From positions 167,170 through 231,169 of the forward strand of contig NZ_LMQW01000012.1 of NCBI RefSeq assembly GCF_001425485.1: 64,000 bases of DNA. Direction: 5' to 3'. Below, one piece after another: positions 46,241 to 59,719 of this stretch; positions within the stretch are counted from its first letter, which is position 1, and the number at the start of each line of letters is the position of its first letter. The translations under genes and the position numbers were made by a program. Under the pieces are notes generated by a model. The model worked only from the letters and a program-made list of their open reading frames with translations. It was not told the origin of the DNA and made no database searches. The stretch is from Aureimonas sp. Leaf427 (GTDB taxonomy: Bacteria > Pseudomonadota > Alphaproteobacteria > Rhizobiales > Rhizobiaceae).

Positions 46241-47799
46241 GCGATGCCTCCGGCGAGACCGGCGGCGAGCGCGTTGACGGCGGCCGAGGCCAGCGCGGAG
46301 CCGCCGCGCCGGCCATGGACCGTGACGAAGGGAATGCCGCGCGAGTGGCGCGACAGTTCGGCCTTCGATTCCGCCGCGCCGACGAAGCCGACGGGCAGGC
46401 CGAGGATGACGGCCGGGCGCGGGGCGCCCCGATCCAGCCGCTCGAGCAGCCGAAAGAGCGCGGTCGGCGCGTTGCCGATGGCGACGACCGCGCCTTCCAG
46501 CGCATCGTCCCAGAGATCGACCTGCGCGGCCGAGCGAGTCGTCTCCAGGCGCGCCGCGAGCGGGGCGACGGCCGGATCGTTCAGCCGGCAAAGAATAGCG
46601 TTTCCAGCAGAAAGATGTCGCCGGATGATGCCGTGGACGACCATCTCGGCGTCGCAGAGGATCGGGCGACCCGCCGCCAGCGCCGCACGTCCGGCCTCCA
46701 CGGCGCCGGTCGAGACCTCAAGATCGCCGAGGAGATCGGGCATTCCGCAGGCATGAACGAGCCGGATCGCGAGATCGCGCGCCTCCTCCGGCACGCGCGA
46801 CAGATCGGCTTCCGCCCGGATCGCGGCGAAGCTCGCGGCATAGATCGCGGCGGGATCGCGGAGATAGCGAAGGGGTTCGGGGACAGGCGCCGCCTCCGGT
46901 ACATCCGTCGCGAAGCCGGGGCTTCCGATGCCGAGAATCCAGCCCTCCTCGGAGAGGACGGCGTCATGGTCGTCGTCGGCAAGCCCCTCGGGACGCGCCA
47001 TCATCTCCGCCAACTGCCCCCGCGCATCCGCCTTGGCGAAGCCCTCGGCCAGGGTCTCGACCTGAGCTTCATCGAGACAGGATCGCCCCTCGATCGCGAC
47101 CGGGAAGAGCGACGGATAGATTTCCGCGATGATGCAGGGCGCGGCGGGACGATCCGCGAAGCCGGTCTCGAACGGCCAGACCGCGACATGCTCGCGCAGG
47201 TCGGGCTCGGCGAGCAGCGCTTCGAGGCGCGCGATGCCGAGAAGCGCCTGGCTCCCGACGCTGCCGGCATAGGCCAGCTTCCAGACCGGCTGGGCCCGCG
47301 GCGCCCGCAATTCGCAATGTCGCCGTTCGGCGATCGTGCCGGGATAGGGAACCGGCTTCGTGATGGAAAGGCCCGCGATGTCGAGATGGGAGGGCCGGCC
47401 CCAGAACATCGGGCCGTCGGCGAAGGCCGTCCGGTTCAGCCGTCCCGCCACTTCGAACCGGTTGGACGTGTTGTCGTCGCGGTCGCGGATCAGCGAGGCG
47501 ATCTGCCGCCAGAGCGAGCGCCAGTCGGCGCCGCCGCCGAGCTTGGCCGCCGTGCCCTTCGGATAGCCCAAGGGAAAGTCGAAGCCGAGCAGAAGCCGGG
47601 CGCCGTCCTCGACCGCGGACCGGATCTCGGCCTCCACGATCTCCATCGCCTCGTGCCGCGTGCGGGGATTGCGGCTCGGCTGAAGCGCGACGCTCCGTCC
47701 CTCGCGCTCGGCCCGTCCGATCCAGATGGAATCCTTGCCGCCGGTCGGCGTGTTCGAAGCCGACCAGTCCACCATCACATATCGATCGAAACGGCTCAT
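46237..47799 (-). CDS. cobH: DUF429-like domain fused to precorrin-8X methylmutase CobH
   Basis: 520 residues, more than twice the usual CobH length of about 210. Residues about 311-520 are CobH, with catalytic His349 in RLVHACG, then GRPILCDAEMVVHGI, NAPTALFRLLERLD and PVGFVGAAESKAEL; it moves the C11 methyl to C12. Residues 1-305 resemble the DUF429/RNase H-like fold: RYVMVDWSASNTPTGGKDSIWIG, LLLGFDFPLGYPKG, DNTSNRFEVAGRLNR and a late Glu-rich segment. I do not know a role for this domain in corrin synthesis. Both joints with neighbours are ATGA overlaps, so the reading frame is secure. Confidence 0.88.
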   Translation of the reverse strand: MSRFDRYVMVDWSASNTPTGGKDSIWIGRAEREGRSVALQPSRNPRTRHEAMEIVEAEIRSAVEDGARLLLGFDFPLGYPKGTAAKLGGGADWRSLWRQIASLIRDRDDNTSNRFEVAGRLNRTAFADGPMFWGRPSHLDIAGLSITKPVPYPGTIAERRHCELRAPRAQPVWKLAYAGSVGSQALLGIARLEALLAEPDLREHVAVWPFETGFADRPAAPCIIAEIYPSLFPVAIEGRSCLDEAQVETLAEGFAKADARGQLAEMMARPEGLADDDHDAVLSEEGWILGIGSPGFATDVPEAAPVPEPLRYLRDPAAIYAASFAAIRAEADLSRVPEEARDLAIRLVHACGMPDLLGDLEVSTGAVEAGRAALAAGRPILCDAEMVVHGIIRRHLSAGNAILCRLNDPAVAPLAARLETTRSAAQVDLWDDALEGAVVAIGNAPTALFRLLERLDRGAPRPAVILGLPVGFVGAAESKAELSRHSRGIPFVTVHGRRGGSALASAAVNALAAGLAGGIA

Positions 47800-49019
47800 C
47801 GCCTCGCCATGGAACGCGGGCCGAGCGGATGGTCGGCATGGGGATAGGGGTGGTGGACGTGATCGTGGGCGCCATGGTCATGGCCATGGGCGGCAGCGGG
47901 GCCGTGGGAATGGCCATGGTCATGGCCGTGATCGTGATCGTGCCCGTGCGCGTGGTCATGAACGTGCCCGTGCGCGGCGGCGTGGTCGTGGTGATGGTGG
48001 CCGTGATCCGAGCCGTGCGGGTGGTCGTGGTCGTGGGCATGACCATGCGCATGATCCTGCCCATGCCGGTGATCGGCCAGCGCCTTGGCGGGCGCGGTCT
48101 TGCAGGCGCCGGTGCAGGCGCGGTCGCAGAGCGTGCAGTCGGCGGAGGAGCCGATGCCTTCGACATGGTGGTGGTGGCTCTCCTGCGGCAAGCCGACCTC
48201 CGCCTCGAAGCCCAGCACCTGCTCGCGGTATTTGCACATGCCGCAGTTCATGTTGTTCGTGCCGTCGAGGATCTCGTGAAGACGGTCCACGAAGGTCTCG
48301 ACCACGAGATCGTGCGCGCCGAGATAGGGCGCCTTCAGGAAGGCGATCTCGGGATGGCGCGCCGCGACGATGTCGGTCTCGTCGAAGATCCGGCGCACGA
48401 GGACGCCGGTGAAGAGGAAATACGGGAAGACGACGATGCGGCGGTAGCCGAGGCGGCTGGCGTGTTCGAGGCCGGGGCCGACCAGCGGGAAGGTGACGCC
48501 GGAATAGGCCGTCTCGCCCCAGCCGAAGCCGAGGCCCTCCCAGAGCATGCGCATGACCTTGGCGACGTTGGAATTGGCGTCGGGATCGGAAGCGCCGCGG
48601 CCGACGACGACGAGCATCGTGTCGTGCAGCGGCTCGCCGTCGCGCCAGCCGTTCGCCCGCAGGCATTCCCGAATGCGCTCGCCGGCGGCGCGGATCATCT
48701 TCGGGTCGATGCCGAGCTCGCGCCCGTAGTCGATGGGAAGGCCGTTCGCGGCGGCATAGGTGTTGAGGACGGAAGGGATGTCGTTCTTGGCGTGGCCGGC
48801 GGCGAACAGCATGCCGGGCAGCGCGAGCACGCGCCGCGCGCCGCCTTCGCGCAGGCGGTCGAGCCCCTCGCGGATCACGGGCCGGGCGAATTCGAGATAG
48901 CCGTGCTCGACCGTCCAGTCGGGCAGGCGCTTCACGAGCTTGGCCGCAAGGCCGGAGAATTCCTCCATCGCGGCGGCATCCCGGCTGCCATGGCCGCAGA
49001 GCATCAAAGCGTTCATCAT
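47796..49019 (-). CDS. cbiX: CbiX-type sirohydrochlorin cobaltochelatase with His-rich tail
   Basis: 407 residues. Two CbiX half-domains (about 1-245) include catalytic His10 in LCGHGSRD and His76 in AAGHAKNDIP. Two cysteine clusters follow, MNCGMC (Cys259, Cys262) and CTLCDRACTGAC (Cys295-Cys306), which in long CbiX proteins can hold iron-sulfur. An extraordinary His/Asp-rich tail (about 318-400) follows, suited to storing cobalt or nickel. The family inserts Co2+ into sirohydrochlorin early in the pathway. It heads the leftward operon; upstream spacer 260 bases. A metal chaperone role is an alternative. Confidence 0.92.
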   Translation of the reverse strand: MMNALMLCGHGSRDAAAMEEFSGLAAKLVKRLPDWTVEHGYLEFARPVIREGLDRLREGGARRVLALPGMLFAAGHAKNDIPSVLNTYAAANGLPIDYGRELGIDPKMIRAAGERIRECLRANGWRDGEPLHDTMLVVVGRGASDPDANSNVAKVMRMLWEGLGFGWGETAYSGVTFPLVGPGLEHASRLGYRRIVVFPYFLFTGVLVRRIFDETDIVAARHPEIAFLKAPYLGAHDLVVETFVDRLHEILDGTNNMNCGMCKYREQVLGFEAEVGLPQESHHHHVEGIGSSADCTLCDRACTGACKTAPAKALADHRHGQDHAHGHAHDHDHPHGSDHGHHHHDHAAAHGHVHDHAHGHDHDHGHDHGHSHGPAAAHGHDHGAHDHVHHPYPHADHPLGPRSMARR

Positions 49020-52489: not shown

Positions 52490-52517
52490 TTGACAGGGTC
52501 TGGAATGCGTCTATCCT
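52490..52517 (+). promoter_or_regulatory. Sigma-70-type promoter of the riboswitch-cbtB transcript
   Basis: A perfect -35 TTGACA at 52490-52495, a 16-base spacer and a -10-like TATCCT at 52512-52517. Transcription would begin near 52524, just before the first riboswitch helix. Confidence 0.65.
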
Positions 52518-52520
52518 CGG

Positions 52521-52860
52521 CAGTGGATGGTCCGGCGGCGCTGATCTTGCGCCATCGGCTAAGAGGGAATGCGAAGGGACGACCCAATCGGGGTCCCGCG
52601 TCGCAGCCGACCCCGCGACTGTAGAGCGGCGAGGTCCTTCCACCCCCGCGATTCGCGTCAGCGAATTCGCGCGGCGACGAACGCTGATCGCGTTTGCGTG
52701 GTGACAAATGCCTTCGGCATTTGCGCAGCGACAAGCGCCATCCGCATTTGCGCAGCGACAAATGCCTTCGGCATTTGCGCAGGGGGAAACGCCACTGGCG
52801 CCGCAAGGGGCTGGGAAGGCAGGAAGAGACCGACGACCCGCGAGCCAGGAGACCTGCCAT
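52521..52860 (+). ncRNA. Cobalamin riboswitch with expanded peripheral arm
   Basis: Conserved pieces occur in order: GGTCC of the first helices, GGCTAAGAGGGAATGCG at about 52557-52573 (core GGGAA), CGCAGCC-ACCCCGCGACTGTAGAGCGGC at about 52602-52630, GCCACTGG at about 52790, CTGGGAAGGC at about 52811, and a perfect B12 box AGCCAGGAGACCTGCC at 52843-52858. Between AGCGGCGAGG and CCACTGG, where most members have one or two short stems, about 150 bases of extra hairpins are present. It precedes cbtB by about 47 bases and should reduce cobalt uptake and cobalamin gene expression when cobalamin is abundant. Confidence 0.92.
52703..52783 (+). repeat. Three tandem 27-bp units inside the riboswitch
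   Basis: Units lie at 52703-52729, 52730-52756 and 52757-52783. The first and third agree at 26 of 27 positions; the middle one has several changes. Units one and three each fold as AAATGCC-TTC-GGCATTT. A further stem upstream (CAGCG at about 52669 with CGCTG at about 52682) extends the same arm. Confidence 0.9.
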
Positions 52861-52906
52861 CCCTTGGAAAAGGCCGCGATTCCGCGCGCCTTCACGGAGG
52901 TTGAGC

Positions 52907-53101
52907 ATGTCCGTTTCCCACACCGCCCCGCATGGGGTCGCAGCGCCCGCCGCTGTCGCCACGTCCACCCGCCTTCTCGCGGGCCTTTCCGCGATGATCC
53001 TCGGACTCGTCCTCGTCTGGGGCGCCGGCTTCGCCTCCGCCCAGACCCTGCACGACACCGCCCACGATGTCCGCCACGGCTTCGGCTTTCCCTGCCATTG
53101 A
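52907..53101 (+). CDS. cbtB: CbtB, small subunit of a predicted cobalt transporter
   Basis: 64 residues; ACGGAGG lies at a good distance from the ATG. A polar N-terminus with one His is followed by a single membrane segment (LLAGLSAMILGLVLVWGAGFASA) and a short C-terminal tail ending HDTAHDVRHGFGFPCH. The His-rich end with a Cys is the family's metal-binding signature. CbtB and CbtA form a cobalt transporter typically under B12 control in alphaproteobacteria, exactly as here. Confidence 0.95.
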   Translation: MSVSHTAPHGVAAPAAVATSTRLLAGLSAMILGLVLVWGAGFASAQTLHDTAHDVRHGFGFPCH

Positions 53102-53127
53102 GCGTTTGAGCTTCGCTTGAAGCCGCC

Positions 53128-53308
53128 GATCTCCCCCCTCGAGGGGAAGATGCCTGGCAAGGCAGAGGGGGGCGCCTCGCGAGATGGTCGGATCGCGTGA
53201 CGTCGTGCTTGGCCTTTCGGTCGCGTGGCGTCGATGGACTTCGACGGCAGCGCTCCTCGGCGCCCCCCCTCTGCCTTGCCAGGCATCTCCCCCTCAAGGG
53301 GGGAGATC
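53128..53308. repeat. Mosaic palindromic repeat (copy C) between cbtB and cbtA
   Basis: The left half (GATCTCCCCCCTCGAGGGGAAGATGCC then GGCAGAGGGGGGCGCC) and the right half (its inverse ending GGGGGGAGATC at 53308) face each other with the CTCTG ends inward, opposite to copies A and B. It makes up most of the 294-base gap between the two transporter genes (53102-53395), which holds no gene. Confidence 0.8.
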
Positions 53309-53395
53309 GGACGCTTCGCCGTATCGCCACGCTTGCCGACGTCGCCGCCCGGCGCCGGCGCAAGCGTTGGATGCCCATCCTGGACGGACCCAACC

Positions 53396-54169
53396 ATGAT
53401 CACCCGCTACCTTCTCGCCGCGCTCGGCGCCGGCCTTCTCGCAGGGCTTCTCCTCACCCCGATCCAATATGCCCGGATCGTGCCCCTCATCCTCCATGCG
53501 GAAACCTACGAGGACGGCGGCGCGCCGCACGAGCACGCATCCGTGCCCGGCCTCGTCGGCACCGCGCAGGCCGGTACGCTCGATGACGCGCCGCTGCTCC
53601 TCGCCCATTCCACCGCACCCGGCGAGGCGCACGAGGAAGCCGAGGCACCCGCGCTGGTCGAAAGCCGGCTGCTCGGCACGGTCCTCGCCAATCTCGTCAC
53701 CGGCTCCGGCTTCGCCCTGATCCTCGCCGCCGTCGGTCTCGTCGCGGGCCGGCCGATCACGGCGGCGAACGGGCTCGTCTGGGGCGCGCTCGGCTTCGGC
53801 GTCGTCTCGCTCGCGCCCTCGCTCGGCCTCGCGCCCGAACTGCCCGCCATGCCGGCCGCCGAGCTCGCCGACCGGCAGCTCTGGTGGATCTCGACCGTGG
53901 CGCTCTCGGCGCTCGGCGCGGGGCTTCTGATCCTCGGCCGAAAGCCGCTCCTGAAAGTGCTCGGCGTCCTCGCGCTCGTGCTGCCGCAGCTCTACGGCGC
54001 GCCGCAGCCGGCGGATCTGACGAGCCCCGTGCCGCCGACGCTGGCGGCCGAGTTCGCGGTCGCCTCGCTCGCCACCTCGCTCGCCTTCTGGCTGATCCTC
54101 GGCCTCGCGCTCGGCGTCCTCTTCGACCGGCTGAAGCGCGACGCCGGCCCGGCGGCGGCGCTCGCATGA
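53396..54169 (+). CDS. cbtA: CbtA, membrane subunit of a predicted cobalt transporter
   Basis: 257 residues from the ATG at 53396. About five to six hydrophobic segments are visible (ITRYLLAALGAGLLAGLLLTPIQ at the start). A periplasmic His/Glu-rich loop (ILHAETYEDGGAPHEHAS, then HSTAPGEAHEEAEAP) probably helps bind cobalt. LYGAPQPADLTSPVPPTLAAEFAVASL near the end is a family signature. It overlaps cobP by ATGA, so the riboswitch transcript continues into the cobalamin genes. Confidence 0.94.
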   Translation: MITRYLLAALGAGLLAGLLLTPIQYARIVPLILHAETYEDGGAPHEHASVPGLVGTAQAGTLDDAPLLLAHSTAPGEAHEEAEAPALVESRLLGTVLANLVTGSGFALILAAVGLVAGRPITAANGLVWGALGFGVVSLAPSLGLAPELPAMPAAELADRQLWWISTVALSALGAGLLILGRKPLLKVLGVLALVLPQLYGAPQPADLTSPVPPTLAAEFAVASLATSLAFWLILGLALGVLFDRLKRDAGPAAALA

Positions 54170-54711
54170 CGCTGCCCGTCCCGATCCTGCGCAACGGCGC
54201 GACGCTCGTTCTCGGCGGTGCGCGGTCGGGGAAGAGCCGGTTCGCGGAGGGGCTGATCGAGGCCTCTCCGCTGGACCCGCTCTACATCGCGACCGCGGGC
54301 GATCCGGGCGGCGACGCCGAGATGGCCTCGCGCATCGCCGAGCACCGCGCCCGGCGGGGCGCCCGCTGGCGCGACACCGAGGCCCCGCTCGATCTCTGCG
54401 GTGCGCTGGAGCGCCACGCGCAGCTCGGCACGGCCGTCCTCGTCGACTGCCTGACGCTCTGGCTAACGAACCTCATGGTCGCCGATCGCGACGTTCCCGC
54501 CGAATGCGAGGCGCTGGTCGAGATGCTCTTTCGCGAGCGCTTCTCGCCCGTCGTCCTCGTCTCCAACGAGGTCGGTCTCGGCATCGTGCCGGACAATGCC
54601 ATGGCCCGCGCCTTCCGCGACCATGCCGGCCGCCTCCACCAATCCATCGCGGCCCGCGCGGGCGACGTCTACTTCGTCGCCGCCGGCCTGCCGCTGAAGC
54701 TCAAAGGCTGA
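54166..54711 (+). CDS. cobP: Adenosylcobinamide kinase / adenosylcobinamide-phosphate guanylyltransferase
   Basis: 181 residues. The P-loop is LVLGGARSGKSRFAE, and IAEHRARRGARWRDTEAPLDL carries the guanylated His region. VDCLTLWLTNLMV and VSNEVGLGIVPDNAMARAFRDHAGRLHQSIA complete the family pattern. It phosphorylates adenosylcobinamide and transfers GMP, preparing it for CobS. It is five bases upstream of cobW. Confidence 0.95.
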   Translation: MTLPVPILRNGATLVLGGARSGKSRFAEGLIEASPLDPLYIATAGDPGGDAEMASRIAEHRARRGARWRDTEAPLDLCGALERHAQLGTAVLVDCLTLWLTNLMVADRDVPAECEALVEMLFRERFSPVVLVSNEVGLGIVPDNAMARAFRDHAGRLHQSIAARAGDVYFVAAGLPLKLKG

Positions 54712-54716
54712 TCTCC

Positions 54717-55802
54717 ATGCAGAAGACACTCGTGTCGAAGATTCCCGCAACCGTCGTCACCGGCTTTCTCGGCGCGGGCAAGACGACGCTCATCCGCAAC
54801 CTTCTCCAGAATGCCGGCGGGCGGCGCATCGCTCTGATCATCAACGAGTTCGGCGATCTCGGCGTCGACGGCGACCTCTTGAAGGGCTGCGGTGTGGAGA
54901 CCTGCCGCGAGGAGGACGTGGTCGAGCTGACGAACGGCTGCATCTGCTGCACCGTCGCCGACGACTTCATCCCGACCATGACGAAGCTTCTGGAGCGCGC
55001 CGACCGGCTCGATCATATCGTCATCGAGACCTCGGGCCTCGCCTTGCCGCAGCCGCTCGTCGCCGCCTTCAACTGGCCCGAGGTCAAGGCCCGCGTCACC
55101 GTGGACGGCGTCGTCACCGTGATCGACGCCGCCGCGGTCGCCGCCGGGCGCTTTGCCAGCGACGAAGGCAAGCTCGCCGAGCAGCGCGCGGCCGACGAAA
55201 GCCTCGACCACGACGATCCGCTGGAGGAGCTCTTCGAGGACCAGATCCGCGCGGCCGATCTCCTGATCCTCAACAAGGCCGATCTCCTCGACCATGCCGG
55301 CCTTGCGAGCGTGCGCCGCACGGTGGAAGAGGCGTCCGGCGGGCGCGTCATGAAGATGCTGACCGCCGAGCACGGCAAGCTGCCCGCCGAGATCCTGCTC
55401 GGGCTCGGCGCCGGCACGGAGGATCTCATCGCGGACCGCCGCTCGCATCACGAGATCGAGCACGAGGGCGGCGAACCGCACGACCACGACGACTTCGAGA
55501 GCTTCGTTGCGGAGGCCGGCGAGGTGTCGAACGTCGCCGGCCTCACGGCAGGACTGAAGGTGCTTCTGGAAGGCCACGACATCCTGCGGCTGAAAGGGTT
55601 CGCCGCCGTCGCGGGCAAGCCGGCGCGGCTCGTCGTGCAGGCCGTCGGCCATCGCATCGAGACCTATTTCGACCGGCCCTGGGCGCCGGGCGAGACGCGC
55701 GAGACGCGCCTCGTCGTGATCGGCCTGCACGATGCGCTGGACGAGGCCGAGATCTCGGCGACCATCGCAGCGCTCGGGACGACGGCCGCCAAGGCCGCCT
55801 GA
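54717..55802 (+). CDS. cobW: CobW, GTP-dependent cobalt chaperone
   Basis: 361 residues. The P-loop is VTGFLGAGKTT (15-24) and the metal-binding motif NGCICC at 73-78 is intact. Switch and specificity motifs include INEFGDLGVDG, ETSGLALPQPL and LNKADL. A His/Asp/Glu-rich insert (HHEIEHEGGEPHDHDD) precedes the C-terminal CobW_C domain. In the late-insertion pathway it delivers Co2+ to CobN-containing chelatase, and cobN starts on the last base of its stop codon. Confidence 0.95.
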   Translation: MQKTLVSKIPATVVTGFLGAGKTTLIRNLLQNAGGRRIALIINEFGDLGVDGDLLKGCGVETCREEDVVELTNGCICCTVADDFIPTMTKLLERADRLDHIVIETSGLALPQPLVAAFNWPEVKARVTVDGVVTVIDAAAVAAGRFASDEGKLAEQRAADESLDHDDPLEELFEDQIRAADLLILNKADLLDHAGLASVRRTVEEASGGRVMKMLTAEHGKLPAEILLGLGAGTEDLIADRRSHHEIEHEGGEPHDHDDFESFVAEAGEVSNVAGLTAGLKVLLEGHDILRLKGFAAVAGKPARLVVQAVGHRIETYFDRPWAPGETRETRLVVIGLHDALDEAEISATIAALGTTAAKAA

Positions 55803-58800
55803 TGCATCTCCTCCTCGCCCGCGCCGGCACGGTGGCGGAGGCCGGCGAGGCGGTCGATCTCGGCCAGTCGCCGGCCGACCTCGTGGTGCTGTCGGCCGCC
55901 GACACGGAACTGGCGGCGCTCGCCGGCGCGGCGCGGCGGCTGGGGACGGACGCGCCAACGCTTCGGCTGGCAAACCTCCTGCGGCTCCGCCATCCCATGT
56001 CGGTCGACACGTCGATCGAGCGCACGTTCCGCCATGCCAAGCTGATCGTCGTGCGGCTGCTCGGCGGCGCGGGGTACTGGCCCTATGGCTGCGAAGCGCT
56101 GCTTTCGCTGGCCCAGCGCACGGGCGTCGCGCTCGCGGTGCTGCCGGGGGACGACAAGCCCGATCCGGGTCTGGATCGGTTTTCGACCGTCTCGACGGCG
56201 GATCGCGAGCGGCTCTGGCGCTGCCTCTGCGAGGGCGGGGCGGCGAATGCGGACGGCTTCCTGGCGGGATGCCGGGCGGTGATCGACGGGCGGCCTGTCG
56301 AGGCCGAGGCGCGACCGCTGATGAAGGCGGGGGTGCTGGAGCGGGGTGGGGCGGATGCGCCGCGCTCGATGGCGCGCGAGCCGTTTCTCGACCACGGCAC
56401 TCCCAGTCCCGACCGTCCGACCGCTGCCGTCGTCTTCTACCGCGCCCTCGTTCAAAGCGGGCAGACCGCGCCCGTCGAGGCTCTCTGCGCGGCGCTGGAG
56501 GCGGAGGGGTTCGAGGCGCTGCCCGTCTTCGTCTCCAGCCTGAAGGACCCGGTTTCCACCGAGACCCTTCGCGCGATCTTCGCGCGCCGGCCGCCGTCCG
56601 TCGTCGTGAACCTCACGGGCTTCGCCGTGTCCTCGCCATCGGGCACGCGGACCCCGACCGTGCTGGAGGAGAACGGCGCGATCGTGCTTCAGGCCGTGTT
56701 GTCGGGCGGGCGCGAAGAGGACTGGGCCTCGTCCCTGCGCGGGCTTTCCGGCCGCGATCTCGCCATGAGCGTCGCGCTGCCCGAAGTGGACGGGCGCGTG
56801 ATGACGCGGGCGGTCGCCTTCAAGGCGGCGGCCGAATGGGACGAGGCGACGGAATGCGAGATCGTCGAGCATCGCGCGGTTCCGGACCGGCTCGCCTTCG
56901 TCGCCCGCCTCGCGCGCAACTGGGCGCGGCTGCGGCAGACGCCGGCAAACCAACGCCGCGTCGCGATCCTCCTCGCCAATTATCCGAACCGGGACGGGCG
57001 CATCGCCAACGGGGTCGGATTGGACACGCCGGCCGGCACGATCGAAGTGCTCCGGGCGATGACGGCGGCGGGCTACGAGACCGGCGCGATCCCGGCCGAC
57101 GGCAACGCCCTCGTCGCGCATCTCCTGCAAGGCCCGACCAATGCCGGCTGGCGCGACCGCAAGGTGCGTGAATGGATGGCGCCGGACGCCTATGCGACGG
57201 CCTTCGCCGCGCTGCCGGAGAGCGTCCGGCTCGCGGTGACGGAGCGCTGGGGCGCGCCGGAGGCCGATCCGTTCTTCGAGCCGGCGCGCGGCTTCGCGCT
57301 GCCGCTCGCGCGGTTCGGCCATGTCATGGTCGGCATCCAGCCGGCGCGCGGCTACAACATCGATCCCAAGGAGACATACCACTCCCCCGACCTCGTGCCG
57401 CCGCATCATTACATCGCGACCTACGCCTTCCTGCGCGAGGTCTTCGGCCTCCATGCGATCGTGCACATGGGCAAGCACGGCAATCTCGAATGGCTGCCGG
57501 GCAAGGCGCTGGCGCTCAGCCAGGACTGCCTGCCGGAGGCGGTGCTGGGGCCGCTGCCCCATCTCTACCCGTTCATCGTCAACGATCCCGGCGAGGGCAC
57601 GCAGGCCAAGCGACGCGCCTCCGCCGTCATCGTCGACCACCTGACCCCGCCCCTCACCCGCGCGGAAAGCTACGGCCCCTTGCGCGATCTCGAACGGCTG
57701 GTGGACGAGGTCTATGCGGCCGAGGGCGATGTCCGGCGCACCGCGCTTCTGAGGCGACAGATCTTCGATCTCCTCGGCGAAGCGGGAATTGGGGCGGATG
57801 CCGGCATCGCCAGAGGGGACACCGGAGACGAGGCGCTGGAGCGGCTCGACGCCTGGCTCTGCGATCTGAAGGAGATGCAGATCCGGGACGGGCTGCATGT
57901 CTTCGGCGTCTCGCCGGACGGGCGGCTGCTGACCGATCTCACGGTGGCGCTGGCGCGGCTGCCGCGCGGATACGAGGCGGGGGACGCCTCGCTGCACCGG
58001 GCGATCGCGGGGGATCTGGGGCTGGGCGACGCCCCCGCCCGCGACGCGGGCGTCCCCTCATCCGGCCCTTCGGGCCACCTTCTCCCCGCAGGGGAGAAGA
58101 AGGAGCCCCGTCCTGCAACGGTCGATGGGACGCGCCATTCTTCTCCCCTGCGGGGAGAAGGTGCCCGGAGGGCGGATGAGGGGCTCTTGCCGCCCCCCTT
58201 CGACCCCCTCGACTGCGATCTTTCCGCTCCCTGGGCCGGCCCCCGTCCCCAGCTTCTCCACAGCCTGTCCACCGATGCCTGGCGCACGACCGGCGACACG
58301 GTGGAGCGGATCGAACTCCTGGCGGCCGGCCTCGTCTCCGGCGACATCCGGCCGGATATCCACATGCCGTCCACAGCCCGCGTGCTGGAGGCGATCTCCT
58401 CCGGGCTCAAGCCGTCCGTGATCGCCTGCGGACCCGCCGAGATCGCAGGGCTTCTGGCCGGGCTCGACGGACGCTTCGTCGCGCCCGGCCCGTCCGGCGC
58501 GCCGTCGCGCGGGCGGCCGGACGTGCTGCCGACCGGGCGCAACTTCTTCTCGGTGGACACGAGAGCCGTTCCGACGCCGGCCGCCTGGACGCTGGGCGCG
58601 GCCTCGGCCGAGCTTCTCGTCACGCGCCATCTGCAGGACCATGGCGAGTGGCCGGCCGCCATCGGCCTCACCTGCTGGGGCACGGCGAACATGCGAACGG
58701 GCGGCGACGATCTGGCGCAAGCGCTGGCGCTGATCGGCGCCAAGCCGGTCTGGGACCTCGCCTCCGGCCGCGTCACCGGCTACGCGATCCGCACGCTCGC

Positions 58801-59719
58801 CGAACTCGGCCGCCCGCGCGTCGACGTGACCTTGCGCATTTCCGGCTTCTTCCGCGACGCCTTTCCCGACCAGATCGCGCTCTTCGACCGCGCCGCGCGC
58901 GCGGTCGGCGCGCTCGACGAGCCGGCGGAGGAGAACCCGATCGCGGCGCGGATGACGGCGGAGAAGACCGCGCTCGAAAGCTCCGGCCTCTCCCCCGCCG
59001 AGGCGGACCGGCGAGCCGGCTTTCGCGTCTTCGGCTCCAAGCCCGGCGCCTACGGGGCCGGCCTCCAGGCGCTGATCGACGAGGGCGGCTGGCGCGACGC
59101 GGGCGATCTGGCCGAGGGCTATCTCGTCTGGGGCTCCTATGCCTACGGGTTCGAGACGGAGGGCGACGGCGCGCGGGCCGAGTTCGAGGCGCGGCTGTCG
59201 CGGCTGGACGCGGTCGTGCAGAACCAGGACAATCGCGAGCACGATCTTCTCGATTCCGACGACTACTACCAGTTCGAGGGCGGCATGACGGCCGCCGCCG
59301 AGCATCTCTCCGGCGCGCGGCCCGCGATCTATCACAACGACCATTCGCGGCCCGAGCGGCCCGTGGTGCGCACGCTGGAGGAGGAGATCGCCCGCGTCGT
59401 GCGCGCCCGCGTGGTCAATCCCAAATGGATCGCGGGCGTCATGCGCCACGGCTACAAGGGCGCCTTCGAGATGGCGGCGACGGTGGACTATCTCGTCGCC
59501 TTCGCCGCGACGACCGGGGCGGTCGCCGATCATCATTTCGATGCGGTGCTTGTCGCCTATCTCCTCGACGAGACCTCGCGCGACTTTCTCATCGCCAACA
59601 ATGAGCCGGCTTATCGCGAGATGAGCGCCAAGCTTCTGGACGCGATCGACCGCGGCCTCTGGTCGCCCCGGTCGAACTCGGCAAGAATGATGCTCGCCGC
59701 CGCAGCCGGCGCACACTGA
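55802..59719 (+). CDS. cobN: Cobaltochelatase large subunit CobN
   Basis: 1305 residues, slightly long for the family. It binds hydrogenobyrinic acid a,c-diamide and inserts Co2+ with the CobS/CobT AAA+ subunits, which are not in this window. Signatures are PARGYNIDPKETYHSPDLVPPHHYIATYAFLREVFG, HMGKHGNLEWLPGK, FIVNDPGEGTQAKRR, RISGFFRDAFPDQIALFDRA, FGSKPGAYGAGL and NQDNREHDLLDSDDYYQFEGG. Residues about 751-794 are repeat-derived low-complexity sequence inserted in frame (see the repeat at 58053-58184), at a surface-loop-like position before FDCDLSAPW-type sequence. Both flanks remain family-like. Confidence 0.95.
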   Translation: MHLLLARAGTVAEAGEAVDLGQSPADLVVLSAADTELAALAGAARRLGTDAPTLRLANLLRLRHPMSVDTSIERTFRHAKLIVVRLLGGAGYWPYGCEALLSLAQRTGVALAVLPGDDKPDPGLDRFSTVSTADRERLWRCLCEGGAANADGFLAGCRAVIDGRPVEAEARPLMKAGVLERGGADAPRSMAREPFLDHGTPSPDRPTAAVVFYRALVQSGQTAPVEALCAALEAEGFEALPVFVSSLKDPVSTETLRAIFARRPPSVVVNLTGFAVSSPSGTRTPTVLEENGAIVLQAVLSGGREEDWASSLRGLSGRDLAMSVALPEVDGRVMTRAVAFKAAAEWDEATECEIVEHRAVPDRLAFVARLARNWARLRQTPANQRRVAILLANYPNRDGRIANGVGLDTPAGTIEVLRAMTAAGYETGAIPADGNALVAHLLQGPTNAGWRDRKVREWMAPDAYATAFAALPESVRLAVTERWGAPEADPFFEPARGFALPLARFGHVMVGIQPARGYNIDPKETYHSPDLVPPHHYIATYAFLREVFGLHAIVHMGKHGNLEWLPGKALALSQDCLPEAVLGPLPHLYPFIVNDPGEGTQAKRRASAVIVDHLTPPLTRAESYGPLRDLERLVDEVYAAEGDVRRTALLRRQIFDLLGEAGIGADAGIARGDTGDEALERLDAWLCDLKEMQIRDGLHVFGVSPDGRLLTDLTVALARLPRGYEAGDASLHRAIAGDLGLGDAPARDAGVPSSGPSGHLLPAGEKKEPRPATVDGTRHSSPLRGEGARRADEGLLPPPFDPLDCDLSAPWAGPRPQLLHSLSTDAWRTTGDTVERIELLAAGLVSGDIRPDIHMPSTARVLEAISSGLKPSVIACGPAEIAGLLAGLDGRFVAPGPSGAPSRGRPDVLPTGRNFFSVDTRAVPTPAAWTLGAASAELLVTRHLQDHGEWPAAIGLTCWGTANMRTGGDDLAQALALIGAKPVWDLASGRVTGYAIRTLAELGRPRVDVTLRISGFFRDAFPDQIALFDRAARAVGALDEPAEENPIAARMTAEKTALESSGLSPAEADRRAGFRVFGSKPGAYGAGLQALIDEGGWRDAGDLAEGYLVWGSYAYGFETEGDGARAEFEARLSRLDAVVQNQDNREHDLLDSDDYYQFEGGMTAAAEHLSGARPAIYHNDHSRPERPVVRTLEEEIARVVRARVVNPKWIAGVMRHGYKGAFEMAATVDYLVAFAATTGAVADHHFDAVLVAYLLDETSRDFLIANNEPAYREMSAKLLDAIDRGLWSPRSNSARMMLAAAAGAH
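58053..58184. repeat. Palindromic repeat inserted in frame within cobN (copy E)
   Basis: The outer arms TCCCCTCATCCGGCCC and its inverse ending GGATGAGGGG are followed inward by CTTCTCCCC-GCA-GGGGAGAAG dyads, the same blocks as copy D at 2373-2496 in reversed order. The length, about 132 bases, is a multiple of three, and the host reading frame continues through it without a stop. Confidence 0.85.

Follow-up and report, generated by a model that had tools for sequence, protein, structure and literature searches.

A cobalamin riboswitch upstream of cbtB with an optional arm probably enlarged by a local tandem array of 27-nt period

The cobalamin riboswitch that precedes cbtB in the 64-kb stretch of Aureimonas sp. 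Leaf427 DNA analysed here (the window) carries a tandem array of about five hairpin-prone units in one arm of its P6 extension. We consider it probable that this is an ordinary AdoCbl riboswitch of the P6-extension type, standing before an operon for cobalt uptake and B12 synthesis, whose optional arm has grown by local tandem duplication, leaving the aptamer intact and sensing little affected.

Is the aptamer itself sound? An Rfam scan of the whole window returned a single match at the gathering cut-off, to RF00174 (Cobalamin), at 59.2 bits (cut-off 31.5 bits; E 3.9e-12) and over the full model, 1-189. The first-pass annotation had recognised a cobalamin riboswitch with a perfect B12 box at this place, and is borne out on both counts. 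The failure of the 5' and 3' halves to align as one aptamer, which it had named as the outcome that would speak against it, did not occur. The features that define the leader are as follows.

52490..52517, + strand: putative sigma-70-like promoter, TTGACA-16-TATCCT (consensus match only)
52511..52875, + strand: cobalamin riboswitch aptamer (single full-length match to the RF00174 covariance model)
52842..52858, + strand: B12 box GAGCCAGGAGACCTGCC (Rfam alignment and exact motif)
52893..52904, + strand: ribosome binding site CACGGAGGTTGA (motif shared with relatives)

The core of the B12 box, AGCCAGGAGACC, is identical in all 11 relatives compared. At the ribosome site upstream of cbtB, CACGGAGGTTG is unchanged in 11 of 11 and the last A is kept in 9 of them. 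The putative promoter, of which one was found against 0.1 expected in shuffles, overlaps the 5' start of the aptamer. For the L5-L13 kissing loop to the expression platform, the GACCCAATC stretch expected for L5 is present in the window sequence and presumably plays that part. At 59.2 bits the aptamer has the lowest score among seven riboswitches in six genomes of the genus, the others ranging from 76.9 to 104.4 bits; so low a score leaves room for a function that may have been lost or altered.

What genes lie downstream? Pfam identifies a run of cobalt and B12 genes on the 3' side of the riboswitch, in the order cbtB-cbtA-cobU-cobW-cobN, and a divergent short-chain dehydrogenase (SDR) gene lies upstream.

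52907..53101, + strand: cbtB (PF09489, E 1.7e-18)
53396..54169, + strand: cbtA (PF09490, E 4.4e-48)
54166..54711, + strand: cobU (PF02283)
54714..55802, + strand: cobW (PF02492, PF07683)
55802..59719, + strand: cobN (PF02514)

The gap between cbtB and cbtA contains, at 53119-53317, an inverted repeat with 54-nt arms that are 93% complementary and 91 nt apart. The operon thus contains a dispersed palindromic repeat that is abundant in the genome: the surrounding stretch, 53110-53320, has 155 matching rows there (both strands counted, so that the places are fewer). On the minus strand at 47796-49019 there is a frame that we call CbiX-like from reading its translation; its very His-rich tail is encoded by short tandem repeats (47927-47976; TRF score 79). 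The same genome has a second cobalamin riboswitch (L016, 1501-1773; contig C50), which scores 76.9 bits and has an arm spacing of 70 nt.

Where in the aptamer does the array sit? Arm anatomy was read from fixed conserved motifs in place of an Rfam or MAFFT alignment. Inside the arm the Rfam alignment is out of register: it sets GCGATT on the GCCACT positions of the model, and the true GCCACTGG lies at 52791.

52633..52641, + strand: P8 5' strand GGTCCTTCC (pairs with 52822-52831)
52791..52820, + strand: conserved GCCACTGG..GGGAAGGC hairpin, true position (exact motifs)
52822..52831, + strand: P8 3' strand GGAAGAGACC (pairs with 52633-52641)

The P8 duplex and the GCCACTG..GGGAAGGC hairpin are predicted in the window and in every one of the 11 relatives examined, with differing bases. 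In one such instance, a C-G pair of the P8 in the window is T-A in A. glaciei and in genome G005. Since the conserved hairpin is intact at 52791-52820, the array fills the optional hairpin that lies between the P8 5' strand and the GCCACTG..GGGAAGGC hairpin, within the P6 extension. The array had been assigned to a peripheral arm from the outset, and the P8 and conserved-hairpin motifs of the relatives place it there too.

Of what is the array composed? TRF reports the 27-nt period with scores of 132 and 160, the two highest among the 96 rows for the window; no other row exceeds 79. Shuffling 52511-52910 by dinucleotides 500 times gave an array scoring at least 30 in 70 cases, and the best of these reached 60 against the 160 of the real sequence; the head-to-tail copies are thus above chance. 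The array extends over 52648-52783 in about five units.

52648..52675, + strand: unit U0, 28 nt, with hairpin TTCGC-GTCA-GCGAA at 52652-52665 (pairing probability 0.99)
52676..52702, + strand: unit U1, 27 nt, predicted to pair chiefly with U3 (unit comparison, folding)
52703..52729, + strand: unit U2, 27 nt, with hairpin CAAATGCC-TTC-GGCATTTG (TRF, folding, unit comparison)
52730..52756, + strand: unit U3, 27 nt, own hairpin disrupted (folding, unit comparison)
52757..52783, + strand: unit U4, 27 nt (TRF, folding, unit comparison)

The statement that two units agree at 26 of 27 positions is correct for U2 and U4, which have a single difference. The description of the array as an exact triplication must be given up: U3 differs from U2 at four positions and from U4 at five, and U1 and U0 precede these three, so that there are about five units. 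U1 differs from U3 at 10 positions of 27 and from U2 and U4 at 11 each and is, on this comparison, older than the three units that follow it. U1 and U2 retain their pairing with different bases, C-G in U1 and T-A in U2.

Both TRF and the repeat search suggested a single 54-nt duplication, U1U2 giving U3U4. One clean event of this kind would not account for the unit differences as we read them: U1 and U3 disagree at 10 of 27 positions, U2 and U4 at a single one. The idea that the aptamer's own GGAAACGCCACTGG strand gave rise to the units was rejected, the best match in the array being 8 of 14, which 1626 of 2000 shuffles reach as well; in this comparison the 27-nt register was the best of 27, a result that is weak on its own. 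On the reading that we favour, a 27-nt hairpin-forming unit would have been duplicated locally in the optional hairpin, by slippage or by palindrome-driven duplication.

How might the enlarged arm fold? The whole arm (52641-52790) has a predicted energy of -79.6 kcal/mol and a z-score of -5.90, and none of 200 shuffles was as stable. It is closed by a stem of its own.

52643..52647, + strand: CCCCC, 5' side of the arm-closing stem (pairing probability about 0.91 with 52782-52786)
52782..52786, + strand: GGGGG, 3' side of the arm-closing stem (predicted pairing)

The closing stem has a probability of 0.91 when the arm is folded by itself and of 0.92 within the full leader; the U2 hairpin stands at 0.87 in both, and the U4 hairpin at 0.87. 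In the best fold of the arm the U2 hairpin is enclosed by a pairing of U1 with U3, the expected numbers of pairs being 15.4 for U1-U3, 1.0 for U1-U1 and 0.9 for U3-U3, and the probability of U1 forming its own hairpin being 0.12. When the units were folded singly, over ranges displaced by one base relative to their limits, U2 and U4 each gave an 8-bp hairpin; U0 and U1 formed hairpins too, and U3 formed none. The z-scores of U0 to U4 are 0.01, -1.16, -1.92, 0.11 and -2.34 (200 shuffles each), with 95, 27, 11, 103 and 5 of the 200 shuffles folding at least as well; on these values the single units are not exceptional. A row of separate hairpins as the main fold was rejected: a hand-made structure of this kind reached -40.5 kcal/mol, whereas the best fold has -79.6. 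This gap is overstated, for the structure contained a 4-bp closing stem and the U0, U1, U2 and U4 hairpins and omitted U3 and all other pairs. We conclude that the array is predicted to fold as a hairpin cluster of its own on the CCCCC/GGGGG stem, outside the ligand-binding core. The correct folding of P8 and core with the array in place is likewise a prediction only.

If the units were gained by duplication, might their number matter? On one account the array is a length-variable tuner: the number of units would vary between cells or strains, shift folding, pausing or mRNA stability, and so set the response. The near-identity of U2 and U4 is what recent duplication or homogenisation would leave. 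There are, moreover, two nearly equal predicted folds, one at -79.6 kcal/mol with U1 on U3 and one at -78.3 kcal/mol when only the U1 hairpin is forced, and the number of units could alter which of them pair. On the other hand, the predicted closing stem persists in the full leader (0.92), the divergence of U3 and U1 argues that not all units turn over fast, and the evidence base is one genome per species. We regard this account, which is that of the first-pass annotation with its young array of probably variable copy number, as unlikely.

Selection could also have acted on the hairpin cluster as an RNA element that recruits a protein or RNase, or that slows RNA polymerase, so stabilising or timing the leader. 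Such a role, which we judge very unlikely, is consistent with the strong fold of the whole arm and with the pairing that U1 and U2 keep by different bases. But any palindromic array would be expected to fold strongly, and the low energy of the arm is a sign neither of selection nor of neutrality. Template-switch correction can also yield paired changes inside a palindrome, and could account for those in U1 and U2. U3, furthermore, lacks a hairpin of its own, and among the genomes searched the array occurs in one only.

How long is this arm in other riboswitches? The ACTGTA-to-GCCACTG spacing reaches 167 nt in the window, against 39, 50, 50, 42 and 65 nt in the five other genomes of the genus. 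The genus search gave seven riboswitches in six genomes, two of them in the genome of the window itself. The SDR gene adjoins the switch in five of the five other genomes, and cbtB and cbtA accompany it in four. At the locus L014 (genome G002) an orthologous riboswitch at the same SDR gene has cobU and cobW after it, and the 1.5 kb examined there contains no match to cbtB or cbtA. Named genomes with CbtA contributed 46 loci, of which 41 could be parsed (L060, L062, L064, L066 and L083 could not). The spacing in these 41 cbtA-linked riboswitches is 12-65 nt, 29 of them falling at 12-24 nt and 12 at 38-65 nt. This count takes in switches on the plus strand that precede cbtA and have exact motifs, minus-strand switches at some loci being left out, and three of the 41 appear to be genus genomes already counted. 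A further set, L018-L047 (spacings 18-25 nt), was excluded, being the best-scoring family matches and biased to short arms.

The ACTGTA-GCCACTG arm is thus, as far as motif spacing can tell, the variable site of the clade. The first-pass annotation had spoken of a normally short variable stem; the stem is indeed variable, and shorter elsewhere, but it has no one fixed length. Identical arms in related genomes, had they been common, would have counted against an unusual arm in the window, and among the relatives examined none shares it. Another part, the stretch between GCCACTG and GGGAAGG, measures 7-16 nt in the window and 11 relatives. In L058, L059, L093 and L094 it is long, at 26, 26, 26 and 64 nt.

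Does the array occur anywhere else? A search of its own genome gave 21 rows, with no second copy: only the array itself fell below E 0.2, the next match standing at E 0.225. It was not found elsewhere in the genus (best other match E 0.028) or in plasmid records, and a 24-base unit pattern had no exact match in a collection of genome contigs from which the array's own genome may be left out. Two of 150 other family genomes sampled gave short matches to the array, one of 32 nt at 88% (E 4.3e-4) and one of 21 nt, exact (E 9.7e-4).

Long arms in general were surveyed in 394 family genomes with exact-motif patterns, which miss switches with a changed motif. Spacings of 72-102 occurred in one genome, G307; those of 101-141, after one extra base, in two, neither with an Rfam match; and those of 140-200, again after one extra base, in six, a search that includes the window as positive control. 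The window and genome G263 account for the real long arms in this last range; three of the remaining matches lack an Rfam match, and the other (G151) is a short-armed switch in which the pattern reaches a later motif. By strict motifs, then, 3 of 394 family genomes have a long arm, the window included. In an order sample of 397 genomes the one match at spacings of 103-163 (G755) has no Rfam match; this range excludes the spacing of the window and had no positive control.

The riboswitch of G263 (L102, 1432-1769, minus strand, 67.8 bits) has an arm spacing of about 146 nt. Its arm holds a dispersed repeat of two palindromes, about 105 bp long, whose sequence gives 36 matching rows in the G263 genome; 18 of these, the arm itself among them, cover 90 nt or more, and some rows are opposite strands of one place. 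Paramesorhizobium and Phyllobacterium have the same arm without this repeat. The G263 arm folds strongly (z -7.88). The long arm of G307 is single-copy, and TRF finds no array there. Because unrelated sequence expands the same arm in G263 and G307, long insertions appear to be tolerated in it, and three unrelated sequences enlarging one arm in three genomes favour such tolerance over one conserved function.

The arm of the window might likewise have received a dispersed palindromic repeat of the REP, RIME or MITE-like kind. G263 offers precisely such a case in the same arm, but no further copy of the window array was found in its genome, its genus or the plasmid records. Repeats of this kind come in several copies, and with the next match in its own genome at E 0.225 we rejected the identification for the window; as an explanation it is highly improbable. 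A broader proposal draws both on the tandem hairpin units of the window and on the dispersed repeat of G263. The optional arm of the P6 extension would be a landing and growth site for palindromic DNA, and would supply the switch with new folding domains able to evolve, its response changing with their unit number or register. We think this decidedly unlikely.

Could the arm encode a peptide? A frame of 111 codons starts at an ATG (52569) within the aptamer, passes through the array, in which each 27-nt unit equals nine codons, and ends at 52904, immediately ahead of the start of cbtB at 52907. Long reading frames are common in GC-rich DNA, however, and the frame from the same ATG has 10-18 codons in 10 of 11 relatives and 57 in one. 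Regulation of cbtB by a short frame of this kind is the most improbable of the explanations weighed here. It would have a model in the metE B12 riboswitch of M. tuberculosis, where, as PMC11260477 reports, a frame lying in the P9-P10 extension is translated. Both switches carry extra sequence in the P6 extension; in metE the frame is translated, whereas that of the window is not conserved.

How does the array compare with what is known? With the AdoCbl riboswitches of RF00174 that have a P6 extension (P7, P8, P10, P11) the window shares the full model match, the B12 box, P8, the GCCACTG..GGGAAGGC hairpin and the B12 and cobalt genes. It differs in an arm of 167 nt, instead of 12-65 nt in the 41 cbtA-linked switches, and in the building of that arm from tandem hairpin units. 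The switch of G263 is alike in the arm concerned, in its similar length and in its strong fold; there the arm is filled by a dispersed repeat, in the window by a local array. Large non-conserved insertions at peripheral sites of riboswitches are known and tolerated, with stable stem-loops predicted to form clear of the core, according to the portions of PMC2258182 and PMC9600662 consulted (for tolerance, a figure legend in the latter). The variable insertions of the one and the variable P6 accessory region of the other thus resemble the arm of the window, a long peripheral insertion predicted to form stem-loops off the core; that of the window is a tandem array, and the same portions make no mention of tandem repeats. 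Variable P6 arms are already in print; the tandem make-up of this one is unusual, and in the open-access library searched we noticed no report of a cobalamin riboswitch with such an array in one of its arms.

What, then, of function? On the preferred reading, that of an ordinary riboswitch with a locally grown arm, the predicted folding implies that the array, held on its own closing stem, should stay clear of the core. Sensing would proceed as in relatives, B12 binding stabilising the core and a loop contact to the expression platform, and the B12-bound leader would shut off or reduce translation of cbtB, by analogy with the switches described in PMC11260477, PMC2258182 and PMC9600662. It is from this analogy that we infer ligand binding and translational off-switching for the switch of the window. 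Because the array is rare, occurring in one genome, and insertions are known to be tolerated, we infer that it is near-neutral.

Regarding the side arms of riboswitches, the window shows that palindromic sequence can be added to one arm without obscuring the core or the B12 box. Such an arm can grow by two routes, a local array as in the window or a dispersed repeat as in G263. Rfam shifts register in arms of this kind, and their anatomy is better read from conserved motifs. If the number of units proves both variable and functional, the array would provide a simple natural system for the effects of a peripheral RNA domain on a switch.
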